Assembly: GCA_029212745.1 (NCBI GenBank)
Contig: JARGOL010000002.1
Coordinates: 206,133-270,132, forward strand
Length of the DNA: 64,000 bases
Direction of reading: 5' to 3'
DNA from: Alcanivoracaceae bacterium
GTDB lineage: Bacteria > Pseudomonadota > Gammaproteobacteria > Pseudomonadales > Alcanivoracaceae
Every line of letters starts with the position of its first letter. Position 1 is the stretch's first letter. Shown here piece after piece: positions 17,126-21,785 of this stretch. Both the position numbers and the translations under genes were made by a program. The notes beneath the pieces were generated by a model. The model saw only the letters and a list, made by a program, of their open reading frames with translations. It made no database searches and was not told where the DNA came from.

Positions 17126-17298
17126 CAGGTTATCTCAACCGAAGTGACGAAAAATCAGTCAGTTAGCGCCTGCGGGGCGCAAAATGACCAGCATGCAGCG
17201 GGATTGTGACCACAAAAGACCAACAGAGCAGGCGCGAGGGTGCCCGGTTGCACGCCGTTATTGGTCGGCGACATCACTGTTGGGCAACAAACGCCGGG

Positions 17299-17709
17299 TC
17301 AGTGGCCGACGATATCGCCCTGCATGGGAGCCAGTCGTGCCAACAGCTGGTTCTGCACAGCCTGGGGCAGGCCTTCGTCGTTCATGGCACTGATCAGGTC
17401 CTCCACCAGCGCATTGAATTCCGCCGGGCGTATGTCCATGCCGGCGTGCACCTGCGCCATGCTGTCGCCGTCGTAGACGCAACCGCCGTTGCTGATGCTG
17501 CAGATCTGTGCGCTGAGCAGGCGATGGAAGCGGGCCGGGTCGGTGTCCGCAAAGCGGGCGGCGATGCGCGGGTCGCTACCAATCCGTTCCATGAAACGGG
17601 TCACCAGGCTGTCCACACCGTCGGCCCCGCCAAGCTGCTGGTACAGAGTGGAATGGGACTGGCAGGCAGCAATAGCCAGGACCAGAAAAACGGCAGCAAG
17701 GATGCGCAT
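17299..17709 (-). CDS. Truncated-hemoglobin lipoprotein
   Basis: 136 residues. The ATG at 17709 overlaps the DUF3034 stop (TGATG) and has GGGAG upstream. The signal MRILAAVFLVLAIAAC gives a lipoprotein with Cys16 acylated. The mature domain (about 20-136) is a group I truncated globin: LYQQLGGADGVDSLVTRF, then the F-helix MAQVHAGM with proximal His88. Most truncated globins are cytoplasmic, so a membrane-anchored periplasmic one is unusual. It should bind haem with O2, NO or CO as ligand. It closes a four-gene operon with a cupredoxin-like protein and a c-di-GMP enzyme, which makes a gas- or redox-sensing role attractive but unproven. Extra cysteines lie at 70 and 77. Confidence 0.85.
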   Translation of the reverse strand: MRILAAVFLVLAIAACQSHSTLYQQLGGADGVDSLVTRFMERIGSDPRIAARFADTDPARFHRLLSAQICSISNGGCVYDGDSMAQVHAGMDIRPAEFNALVEDLISAMNDEGLPQAVQNQLLARLAPMQGDIVGH

Positions 17710-18566
17710 CAGAAACTCCCGGTCAGTGACAGGTAGACGCCGCGCTGGTCCTCCAGCGGGCCTATGTCCCCCAGGTCCACAGCGGCTGCGGCCAGGGACC
17801 ATTGCTTGTCAGGGAACCAGGCGATGAAGACATCGCGCCAGTTGTCCTCGTCCAGTGCCGTGAGGTTGTCCGGCTTCTGGCGGTACTCGGTGCCGATCAA
17901 CAGCGCGTCGCTGGCGAACCAGCCCAGCGTGCCCTCCAGCAGTGTGGAACGGCCGCTTTCGCGGTCACCGCCAAAGCCCACCAGGCCGGCATGGTTGGCG
18001 CTGCTGTTGCGGACGGCGGCATTGACCAGCCAGCGCTGCTCCAGCCAGCCGGCCAGGAACACCTTGGTGGCGGCAAGATAGGCGTCGGTGCCGGAGTCTT
18101 CGCGCGCTCCCACCAGTTCGGGAATATCGAAATCATGGTGGCGGCGATAGACCGCACCGAGCGACACCTGGGGCATTTCGGTGTAGAGCACATCGCCGGC
18201 CAGGCGCACTTTGACACCCACCGTATTGACTTGCAGGTCGAGGGCACCCGTGCCCACCTGGCGCCCCAGGGTGCCAAGGTTGAAGACCTGGCGTGACGCC
18301 GACAGCTCGATACGGTTGTGCCAGTTGAAGGCGGCGGAGAAGGTGTTGAGCCGGTAATCGTCCACATCCGTGCGGGTGGCAGACACCGTGCCGCCATACT
18401 GGTCGTCACTGGCGTAGCCGGCGAGGAGAGCCATTGGCACAATGCCGCCGCCTGCACCGCCATCCAGGTGGGCAATGCCGCCGGTGGCCAGCAGCCGGCC
18501 CCGCTCGCCAAAGGCCGGCCCGGTCAACGCCAGACCCCATGCAATCAGCAGAACCAGTCTAGCCAC
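17709..18566 (-). CDS. DUF3034 family outer-membrane beta-barrel-like protein
   Basis: 285 residues from a GTG start with GAGGGGG upstream; the start overlaps the GGDEF-EAL stop by eight bases. A signal peptide (1-20, ending GPAFG) is followed by GRLLATGGIAHLDGGAGGGI, the typical opening of DUF3034 proteins, then alternating amphipathic beta-strands with a terminal aromatic (GSF), as in outer-membrane proteins. The function is unknown in the family. In this operon it could be an outer-membrane pore or anchor for the globin lipoprotein encoded next, whose start overlaps this stop. Confidence 0.85.
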   Translation of the reverse strand: MARLVLLIAWGLALTGPAFGERGRLLATGGIAHLDGGAGGGIVPMALLAGYASDDQYGGTVSATRTDVDDYRLNTFSAAFNWHNRIELSASRQVFNLGTLGRQVGTGALDLQVNTVGVKVRLAGDVLYTEMPQVSLGAVYRRHHDFDIPELVGAREDSGTDAYLAATKVFLAGWLEQRWLVNAAVRNSSANHAGLVGFGGDRESGRSTLLEGTLGWFASDALLIGTEYRQKPDNLTALDEDNWRDVFIAWFPDKQWSLAAAAVDLGDIGPLEDQRGVYLSLTGSF

Positions 18567-20864
18567 GCCGCCCCCTCCAGCTCACACACCACTGTTCGAA
18601 TGCTTCCCGCTTCAGTGGCTTGCTGAAATGGAAGCCTTGCAGCATATCGCAGGACAGGCTGCGCAATGCGTCGACGCAGGCCTGGTCCTCGACGCCTTCA
18701 GCCACGGTCGTGCAGTGCAGACGCTTGGCCAGTGCGACGGTGGCTTCGACAATGGCACGGTCGCGTGGATCAGCGAGGGAGCCGAGGACGAAACATTTAT
18801 CGATCTTGATTTCGTCCACCGTGAGCTCGCGCAGCCGGGCCAGGGATGAATGCCCGGTACCGAAATCATCCACCGACACGCGTATGTTGTGACGCCTCAG
18901 GCGCTGGGCAAATTCCACCGCCGCGCTGGCCTGTTCCATGAGCATGGTTTCGGTGATCTCGATGCAAAGAAGCGCAGGCTCGAAACCAAGCTCCGCCACG
19001 CGCGCGATGATATCGCCGGACAGGGCGCTGTCACGGATGTCCTCGACACTGACGTTCATCGACACGGGAATGCGCAGGCCCATGGAGGACCACTGGGCAA
19101 TGCTCTGGCATACCTGTTCCAGCACCCAGCGGGTCATGCTGCGGATGGCACCACTCTTTTCAGCAATGGGGATGAACTCCGCAGGTGAAATGGGGCCCAG
19201 CTCCGGGTGCTCCCAGCGGAGCAGGGCTTCGGCGCCAATATGGGACGAATCATCTGCGGCCACCTTGGGCTGATACAGCAGGTGCAGCTGTTGCCGCTCC
19301 ACCGCATATTCCACATCAGAGGCCAGGCGCAGGCGGCGCTGCCGCTGCTCATCGCTGCCGGCATCGTAGCGCAGGACAAAGGCACGGAGCTGCTTGGCCC
19401 GGTAGACGCTCATTTCTGCCCGTCGCATGGCGGCTTCCGGCTCACTGCCGTCTTCAGGGCAGCAGACGAAACCGGCGCTGAGCTCGATCAGCTGGTAAAG
19501 GTCTTCGCCAATGCAGACTGGCTGCTTCATGCTGTCACTGACCATGCGTGCCATGTGCATGGCCTGGACCTCGTCGGCATCGCGGATGACAACGGTGAAT
19601 TCATCACCGCCAGTACGGAAGACCGAGGCACGCCGGGCGAACACCTGCTGCAGGCGACCGGCCAGCTCGCAGATGGCGGTGTCACCTGCGTCCTGACCGT
19701 AGGCGTCGTTGATGCGCCGCAGGTCGTTGATGTCAAAGGCCATCAGTACCACTGGCGTGCGTTGCGCCATCAGGTGCGCAAGCTCCGACTGCAGGTTGAG
19801 GCGATTGGGCAGGCCGGTGAGCGGGTCGTGCCGCATCTGGTATTCGATCCGTTTCTCGCGGTCGGCAATGGCCCGCTGCATGGAATTGATGCCCCGCGAC
19901 AGGGTGTTCAGCTCGATAATCTTGCGTTGCCGCGCACGGCCACGGTAGTCACCCGCGGCAATACGGTTTGCCAGGCGCGACAATTCTTCCAGCGGGCGTG
20001 TCAGCCGCCGCGCCAACAGCAGACCGGCAAAGCTGGCCAGGCCCACAGCGCCCAGTGCCAGTATCAGCAGGTTGCGACTGAGTTCCCGCAGGCCTTCTTT
20101 TTCGGCAGCCAGTGAGCGCAGCAACGCGAAAGAAACCGGGGCATCCGGGTAAGGCGTCATCAGGCGAACCAGTTGCTCACCGCCGGGTAACGCGATGCGT
20201 GTCAGTGCCTCGCCCGTCATGGATGCCGCGAGGCGTTGCAGTTCAGCGTCTGAACCGGCGGGCAGGGTGCTGTCGAGCAGGTAGGCAGACTGCCGGGACG
20301 TATCAAACAGCGCGATATCCAGCCCGCTGATGGCCTTGAGACGCGCCAGGAAGCGGTCGCCAATCTCAAAGCCGAAGGTCACCATGGCGATGGGCCGGGG
20401 TGCCAGTATCTGATTGGTCACCATCAGGAAGGCGCGCTGGTTGACCAGCTGGATCTCGGCCTTGAGTTGACCGTCTTCGGTATCGAAGCCGGAAGGCATG
20501 AAAGGAATGTCAGGGTTCGAAGTGATCAGCCGGCCATCCTGCAGGCGCAGATTGGCAAACTCGGCGCCGATACGGGCGCCGTGGTTTTCCAGCGCCGACT
20601 GGATGGTGGCGATGTCGCCTGAGGCAACGGCATCCTTGAAGCCAAAGTCCTCCACCAGTACCACCGTGCCGGACATGACCTGCTCCGTCTGGAAGCGGAG
20701 TTTCTCGTCAAAAAAAACGTCTCGGCCTGTGCCATTTTCCGCGCCGCATTGGATTCCACCACGTCTGTGGTGATGCCAAGCACGTAGACGAAGGCGGGTA
20801 CGAAGATGACAAGCAGCAGCGAAAGCAGGCCAAGTACCAGTATGTTGCGAAACTTAATTGGCAA
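18559..20864 (-). CDS. Membrane GGDEF-EAL c-di-GMP enzyme, split by a -1 frameshift in a T8 tract
   Basis: Read as two overlapping frames. The 5' part starts at a TTG (20864, AGGA upstream) inside the cupredoxin stop, with a first membrane helix (FRNILVLGLLSLLLVIFVPAF). At 20710-20717 (minus strand, eight T) the frame shifts; adding one T restores a continuous protein of about 768 residues through FDEKLRFQTEQV into the downstream frame. That frame (ATG at 20676, 705 residues) has a periplasmic region, helix 202-222, HAMP-like linker, intact GGDEF (356-360) without a clear RxxD inhibitory site, and intact EAL (EALLRW 483-488, DDFGTGHSSL later). Both catalytic signatures look active. The break could be a sequencing error, phase variation, transcriptional slippage or decay. 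Confidence 0.85.
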
Positions 20865-21546
20865 ACGGATTTTTCCTGATAAATGGATTGTCTGGCTGCG
20901 CCCGGCGGTTTCGTGGGTCCGGACCAAGGTCGTTAATCGTCATCTCGATGATCGTATTGGTTTCCAGCTCTCGTCTGGATACTGACCGGGTCACTGGCAG
21001 CTGTTCATTACGCCAGGGATGGCGGACGGCCAGACGGACCGGGCCAGAAGCGCTGACGCGATCAAAATCCACCCGCCCGCGGTTGTCGGATACCTGGTAG
21101 CGGGGCGCATCGCTCACGTAAATGAAGCCGACCATGCCATCGTGGATGTTGCAACCCAGGGCCACCATGCCGGTGTCCGGGAAACCGACCGGGTCTGCTG
21201 GTGTGCCTGAATACAGCTTGAGCTCAAAACGACGTGCGGGGGAAAACGAATACACGTGGTGACGTATGTCATCGCTGTTGGGGAACCAGACGGAGGCTCC
21301 GGATGGGATGACGCTCACGTGTGGTACGAACTGCTTTTGTTGCTGGTCCACTGCGTAGCGATGGTCCTGCGGCGCAGCTTCAACCCCAAACAGTTCCACC
21401 ACGGTGCCGGACACGGGGTTGCCCTGGCTGTCGACCACCCTGACGGATACCGAGGCGGCACTGGCCAGAACGGGTGCGAGCACCATGCACGCAAACAGAA
21501 GGAAGTGTTTGCCTCTGCCTTGCCTGCCTGTCTGCGCCGCGTTCAT
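20854..21546 (-). CDS. Exported cupredoxin-like protein (methylamine-utilisation-type)
   Basis: 230 residues from the ATG at 21546 (GGGAG upstream). A signal peptide (1-31, ASA) directs it to the periplasm. The fold is an Ig/cupredoxin barrel: a carboxypeptidase-regulatory-like N-terminal half (VSVRVVDSQGNPVSGTVVEL) and type I copper ligands in the expected order, His96/97 (DIRHHVYSFS), Cys132, His135 and Met138 (GCNIHDGM). Similar proteins are annotated as methylamine utilization or plastocyanin-like. It is first in the operon and its stop overlaps the start of the GGDEF-EAL gene by 11 bases, so it may act as the periplasmic redox or copper sensor for that enzyme. Confidence 0.85.
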   Translation of the reverse strand: MNAAQTGRQGRGKHFLLFACMVLAPVLASAASVSVRVVDSQGNPVSGTVVELFGVEAAPQDHRYAVDQQQKQFVPHVSVIPSGASVWFPNSDDIRHHVYSFSPARRFELKLYSGTPADPVGFPDTGMVALGCNIHDGMVGFIYVSDAPRYQVSDNRGRVDFDRVSASGPVRLAVRHPWRNEQLPVTRSVSRRELETNTIIEMTINDLGPDPRNRRAQPDNPFIRKNPFAN

Positions 21547-21760: not shown

Positions 21761-21785
21761 AAAAAGGCCCCGCAGGTGCGGGGCC
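21761..21785 (-). terminator. Terminator of the second monooxygenase gene
   Basis: Minus strand: GGCCCCGC, loop ACCT, GCGGGGCC, then TTTTT. It lies 27 bases beyond the monooxygenase stop and is strong. Confidence 0.85.

Follow-up and report, generated by a model that had tools for sequence, protein, structure and literature searches.

What ties a periplasmic copper protein, a membrane enzyme of cyclic di-GMP (c-di-GMP) turnover, an outer-membrane barrel and a globin together in one operon? The question is raised by positions 17,299-21,546 of a 64,000-nucleotide stretch of DNA from an Alcanivoracaceae bacterium (assembly GCA_029212745.1, contig JARGOL010000002.1), analysed as a whole and hereafter called the window. 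Cupredoxin, sensor, DUF3034 and truncated globin genes follow each other in this order, all on the minus strand, in contig 2 of a 3.3 Mb genome. A first-pass annotation, made from the sequence alone, took them for a co-expressed set relaying haem or copper sensing in the envelope to cytoplasmic c-di-GMP. The four genes are a real, conserved operon. Comparative analyses support a role in signalling from the envelope to the cytoplasm, chiefly since the cupredoxin keeps its sensor type across different outputs. The operon is tentatively read, with a probability of about 0.4, as an envelope-sensing system made of two pairs, the cupredoxin with a dCache sensor and the DUF3034 barrel with the globin.

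Linkage of the four genes and exchange of the sensor output

DUF3034 genes were found in 4 of 38 near relatives, in 18 of 369 genomes class-wide, and in 39 of 398 genomes of Pseudomonadota phylum-wide. The latter sample is unbiased, and provides the fairest test of linkage. The DNA around DUF3034 (9 to 16 kb) was inspected in 35 of the 39 genomes, the other four loci having been obtained earlier. An exported group-1 truncated globin adjoins DUF3034 in 39/39 genomes, and all four genes are found in 30/39, which refutes the notion that the homologues are scattered. In a larger set of 103 loci, mostly selected by similarity (80 by similarity, 3 from plasmids), 92 carry all four genes, and in 86 the genes share one strand and run cupredoxin, sensor, DUF3034, globin, so that the order of the four families is conserved well beyond the window. 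The median cupredoxin-sensor, sensor-DUF3034 and DUF3034-globin junctions in this set measure -11, -1 and +2 bases. The co-expression and functional linkage for which the first-pass annotation had argued are strongly supported by the conservation of gene order, by junctions that are tight or overlapping, and by the wide spread over taxa. In the class-wide sample, and in classes other than Gammaproteobacteria, linkage is looser, and lone DUF3034 genes reside at L040-L043, two of them on short contigs. In Novosphingobium and other loci the two gene pairs are divergently transcribed. The set is also borne by plasmids of Caballeronia, Novosphingobium and Paraburkholderia. The Paraburkholderia plasmid is unannotated; in the other two the products are named "methylamine utilization protein" or "carboxypeptidase regulatory-like", "EAL domain-containing protein", "DUF3034" and "group 1 truncated hemoglobin".

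A search that used just the cupredoxin recovered full-length relatives in genomes lacking DUF3034, and most of these relatives adjoin a membrane protein that shares the sensor region (pairs L156-L160 and L162-L168). GGDEF-EAL outputs also occur beside these cupredoxins. Other neighbours carry a nucleotide cyclase (L156, L158, L163 and L165, L158 featuring HAMP and the same sensor profile), a histidine kinase (L159) or, again with DUF3034 absent, a Ser/Thr kinase (L168, L170 and L171). Ser/Thr-kinase sensors have been identified inside DUF3034 loci as well, in Tahibacter aquaticus (L073, 5886-7883) and in L033 (8811-11417). The cupredoxin tree requires at least five changes of output, and one cyclase form falls inside a well-supported GGDEF-EAL group. 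Full-length cupredoxin loci number about 28 in the class sample, and about 24 of them have a dCache_3-type sensor within ~1 kb. The cupredoxin stays with the periplasmic sensor while the cytoplasmic output varies, and is therefore most naturally taken as belonging to the input, probably as a fixed periplasmic partner of the dCache_3 sensor. Mirror-tree correlations (0.75-0.91) are confounded by species relatedness, and were not used as evidence of contact. Two DUF3034-globin loci have the cupredoxin beside an extracytoplasmic function (ECF) sigma factor (L026, 5585-6493; L174, 7244-8575), and no adjacent dCache sensor was found in them.

Predicted properties of the four proteins

The type-1 copper ligands of the cupredoxin, His96, Cys132, His135 and Met138, show no variation across 92 sequences. 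The last three had been assigned correctly from the window alone; of the two histidines offered for the first position, His96 stands, and His97 is not the invariant one. The ligand set predicts that the protein is loaded with copper. Both the structural model (predicted local distance difference test, pLDDT, 87) and its comparison with solved structures reveal a beta-sandwich, matching plastocyanins, amicyanins and the cupredoxin domain of nitrite reductase with Z up to 11.8. The copper domain spans residues 61-146 and, as two structural matches covering about residues 26-211 hint, may be nested in a second beta domain. Amicyanin has the same Cys-x2-His-x2-Met spacing, which accounts for the database name "methylamine utilization protein". 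The similarity to amicyanin and plastocyanin extends to the fold (Z 10.3-11.8) and, for amicyanin, to the whole His...Cys-x2-His-x2-Met spacing. In contrast to both, the operon protein is 230 residues long, has a flanking beta domain and is tied to membrane sensors; it is not known to serve methylamine dehydrogenase.

In intact relatives the sensor is made of dCache_3 (PF14827), HAMP, GGDEF and EAL domains, according to Pfam. The dCache_3 profile scores above cut-off in 4 of the 6 DUF3034-linked sensors tried (L118, L057, L006 and L033), and below it in L027 and L073; weak similarity to CHASE4 is found in the GGDEF-EAL forms. Pfam detects no PAS domain ahead of GGDEF in the window sensor or its relatives, and the window sensor has no NCBIfam equivalog at cut-off. 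The GGDEF and EAL motifs earlier reported in the window are both there. The EAL catalytic set (E, N, E, DD, K, E, Q) is intact in 85 of 87 relatives and in the window copy, the GG[DE]EF motif in 17 of 87 relatives and, again, in the window copy. Given these counts, c-di-GMP hydrolysis is the likely common output of the family. The periplasmic domain has no conserved Cys, and its most conserved His is found in 77% of the sequences; it is therefore plausible that a metal is carried by the partner. Asp74 is invariant and Asp85 is kept in 95%, and acidic residues are possible metal ligands in this domain. In several Pseudomonas loci (L058, L063, L067, L072, L074, L077, L079-L082) the cupredoxin gene is immediately preceded by an additional full-length GGDEF-EAL paralogue that has the same sensor, making two sensors per cupredoxin.

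DUF3034 (PF11231, E=3e-95; 318.9 bits against a cut-off of 25) had been described as an outer-membrane-like barrel, and the model bears this out: 12 strands (pLDDT 76), with FapF (Z 19.1) and KdgM (Z 18.4) among the matches. A terminal Phe is typical of outer-membrane proteins, and is found in 78 of 103 DUF3034 proteins. FapF, KdgM/NanC and the COG4313 channel have the same 12-strand architecture (Z 17.4-19.1), but identity is about 10%, and the glycine-rich N-terminal segment of DUF3034 has no identified counterpart in them. This stretch (residues about 24-51 in the window protein), unfolded in the model, belongs to the most conserved part of the family. In genome G472 a second, fragmented DUF3034 copy (contig 3, about 72638-73313) is found in addition to an intact one elsewhere in the genome.

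The globin matches PF01152 (E=1e-11), its best solved relatives being group-1 truncated haemoglobins. Cys16 and His88 had been rightly singled out as lipobox and proximal residues. The proximal His (F8) is found in 98 of 98 globins and a Cys pair, probably forming a disulfide, in 97 of 98; haem binding is expected from the conserved His. Membrane anchoring, deemed unusual in the first-pass annotation, is the rule in this family, since 81 of 98 sequences have a lipobox, and most of the others different signal peptides. None has Asp at +2, and the lipoproteins should therefore be placed in the outer membrane by the usual rule. In alignments to HbN, the sequence of which was checked against PDB 1idr, the polar TyrB10/GlnE11 pair is replaced by apolar residues (B10 Leu/Val/Ile/Met in 96/98, E11 Leu/Ile/Phe/Met in 98/98). 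HbN-like stabilisation of O2 and dioxygenation of nitric oxide (NO) are therefore not expected, and the assignment to group 1 is unaffected. HbN and GlbN share PF01152 and the proximal His with the operon protein, which differs in being exported and mostly lipidated, and in having the conserved Cys pair and the apolar pocket. Globins of the same exported type occur at L238-L242 with no DUF3034 nearby.

Proposed mechanism and competing explanations

In the model proposed, the exported type-1 copper protein would be the dedicated periplasmic partner of the inner-membrane dCache_3-HAMP-GGDEF-EAL sensor. Copper occupancy, or redox state, of the cupredoxin would alter its docking on the dCache domain, and so set c-di-GMP turnover, plausibly through EAL hydrolysis in most species, the GGDEF domain being mainly regulatory. 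The 12-strand DUF3034 barrel would pair with the exported, usually outer-membrane-lipidated globin, and provide input from outside: at the outer membrane the haem could react with a redox partner or with NO or O2, and the globin could pass electrons or oxidation state to the cupredoxin. A bolder version, in which barrel and lipidated haem globin feed the blue copper protein and this the inner-membrane Cache sensor, as a trans-envelope redox or gas chain whose modular front end drives c-di-GMP, cyclic-nucleotide, phosphorelay and Ser/Thr kinase outputs, is improbable as a whole.

Several observations weigh against the two-pair sensing operon. The cupredoxin tree has weak support overall and several long branches. 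At L161, L169 and L172 the cupredoxin has no sensor beside it, and DUF3034-globin pairs occur in the absence of cupredoxin and sensor (L175, L204, L210, L221, L223 and L231). Confidence in the barrel model is medium. Boxes for FNR/ANR, NsrR, CueR-like, CopR-like and Fur regulators, searched as sequence patterns upstream of the cupredoxin gene, are not enriched over shuffled sequences. Finally, the sensor gene is frameshifted in this very genome.

The sensor may bind a metal, haem or a small molecule directly, the cupredoxin, globin and barrel then being a response for handling copper or haem, or for detoxification at the envelope, that is co-transcribed with the switch of surface living. A precedent is the IsmP/ImcA iron module of Pseudomonas aeruginosa, as the CHASE4 domain of IsmP (PA2072) binds ferric iron, and that of the homologue PA14_37690 binds copper (PMC10904736, PMC13277305). 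Like the operon sensor, both are inner-membrane one-component c-di-GMP proteins with a periplasmic CHASE4/Cache domain, GGDEF and EAL; a periplasmic metal is their signal (PMC10904736, PMC13277305), as it may be for the operon sensor. IsmP differs in having a PAS domain and in binding the metal itself. The weak CHASE4 similarity of the dCache_3 sensors, and the conservation of Asp74 and Asp85, fit such a scheme. Yet the operon sensors lack a conserved His/Cys/Met set, a sequence search with their profile gave nothing significant among solved CHASE4 structures, and the cupredoxin tracks the sensor across outputs without DUF3034 and globin, as suits an input better than a response. Direct binding is on balance unlikely. 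Still less probable is that two independent modules share one transcript with no relay between them, cupredoxin and sensor serving signalling, DUF3034 and globin uptake or protection at the outer membrane. Each pair occurs alone (DUF3034-globin in L175, L204, L221 and L231, cupredoxin-sensor in the pairs listed above), and their divergent transcription in some loci fits this scheme too; since the pairs are found apart, they may act separately. However, if the pairs had no function in common, co-occurrence in 30 of 39 genomes and overlapping gene ends across several classes would be difficult to account for.

The state of the sensor gene in the window raises a further alternative, namely that the operon is decaying in this genome, the sensor being a pseudogene and the exported proteins alone being made. 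This is a possibility of some weight, though doubtful, and is compatible with any function in relatives. The first-pass annotation described a single GGDEF-EAL gene; the motifs hold, the single open frame does not. The frame starting at the TTG codon includes the first transmembrane segment, passes a run of eight T residues (T8) within the periplasmic domain into the wrong frame, and meets a stop at 20526. As for the frame that encodes HAMP, GGDEF and EAL, it is open between 20853 and 18559 only, and the first ATG in it lies at 20676. Joining the two takes a net change of +1 or -2 at the T run. The exact T8 sequence is present once in the genome. In the closest relatives compared, L027 and L028 of the same family, the sensor gene is intact and has no T run; relatives lack the run, as well as the extra Phe that a +1 form would add. 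Relatives lack the tract, and the RNA downstream of it is not more stably folded than shuffled sequences (z 0.49), so that programmed frameshifting at T8 is unsupported; both facts also favour decay. Against decay, the frame past the break is intact with all catalytic residues kept, so that the break would be recent, a reversible slippage or an assembly error, and inspection of the sequence reveals, besides a slippery UUUUUUG stretch, an internal ATG preceded by GGAG; some product could come from these. Sensor output may be lost here, reversibly switched off, or disrupted by a sequencing-error artefact; mutation, phase variation and sequencing error are all compatible with the frameshift. Sensor genes are split into two or three frames, at sites unlike that of the window, in L029, L047, L049 and L082 as well, as pseudogenes or through assembly errors.

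If the operon is an envelope-sensing system of two pairs, its nearest analogue is plausibly a c-di-GMP sensor with a separate periplasmic partner. In the NspS-MbaA system of Vibrio cholerae, the activity of a GGDEF-EAL protein in the membrane is set by the periplasmic product of a neighbouring gene, and the net output is that of a phosphodiesterase; NspS is a polyamine-binding protein with a solute-binding fold. Here the partner would instead be a type-1 copper protein, accompanied by a barrel and a globin. On this reading the operon joins a c-di-GMP sensor in the membrane to a periplasmic partner of its own, in this case a blue copper protein, and adds a pair of barrel and globin with no described counterpart. 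Its parts are known families, and their combination is undescribed in the literature searched. No published description of the four-family combination was found, a weak negative as most subscription journals fell outside the search. Of two literature hits on DUF3034, neither concerns the operon, and one is a figure legend, the other panels of which deal with DUF3037. PMC10904736 does not mention an operon, and PMC13277305 mentions neither operon, cupredoxin nor DUF3034, its sole "globin" match being "globin-like coordination".

A signal has yet to be assigned to most periplasmic sensor domains that occur in enzymes of c-di-GMP turnover. Here candidate partners are named by the genome itself, namely a copper and a haem protein together with an outer-membrane channel, in a set conserved over Alpha-, Beta- and Gammaproteobacteria, many plant-associated Pseudomonas included. 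Such composition suggests metal, gas or redox sensing at the cell surface for a lifestyle decision. It provides a testable role for DUF3034 and for the misnamed "methylamine utilization protein", and a route to asking how extracellular copper, NO or redox sets motile versus attached life.

Layout of the locus in the window

Features of the operon are collected in Table 1. The overlaps of 11, 8 and 1 bases formerly reported between the four genes agree with these coordinates, the first one depending on the TTG start of the sensor gene.

Table 1. Coordinates of the operon and of flanking features in the window
Feature	Position	Strand	Description
Cupredoxin gene	20854..21546	-	exported, "methylamine utilization protein" type, 230 amino acids
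Sensor gene, N-terminal piece	20526..20864	-	TTG start 20864; first transmembrane segment and start of periplasmic domain; out of frame past T run
T8 homopolymer	20710..20717	-	site where the sensor frame breaks
Sensor gene, main piece	18559..20676	-	remaining dCache_3-type periplasmic domain, second transmembrane segment, HAMP, GGDEF, EAL
Sensor domains (approximate)	HAMP 20019-19867; GGDEF 19830-19390; EAL 19317-18616	-	
DUF3034 gene	17709..18566	-	GTG start; outer-membrane beta-barrel (predicted); C-terminal Phe; conserved glycine-rich N-terminal segment
Globin gene	17299..17709	-	lipoprotein group-1 truncated globin; lipobox Cys16, proximal His88, Cys70/Cys77, apolar distal pocket
Intrinsic-terminator-like hairpin	21766..21785	-	8 GC pairs, loop 4, tail TTTTT; just upstream of cupredoxin gene
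Terminator-like hairpin, weak	17292..17311	-	overlaps globin gene end

The total number of hairpins in the region is not above that of shuffled sequences. The hairpin upstream of the cupredoxin gene is intergenic and, being terminator-like, may set the operon apart from the upstream gene.

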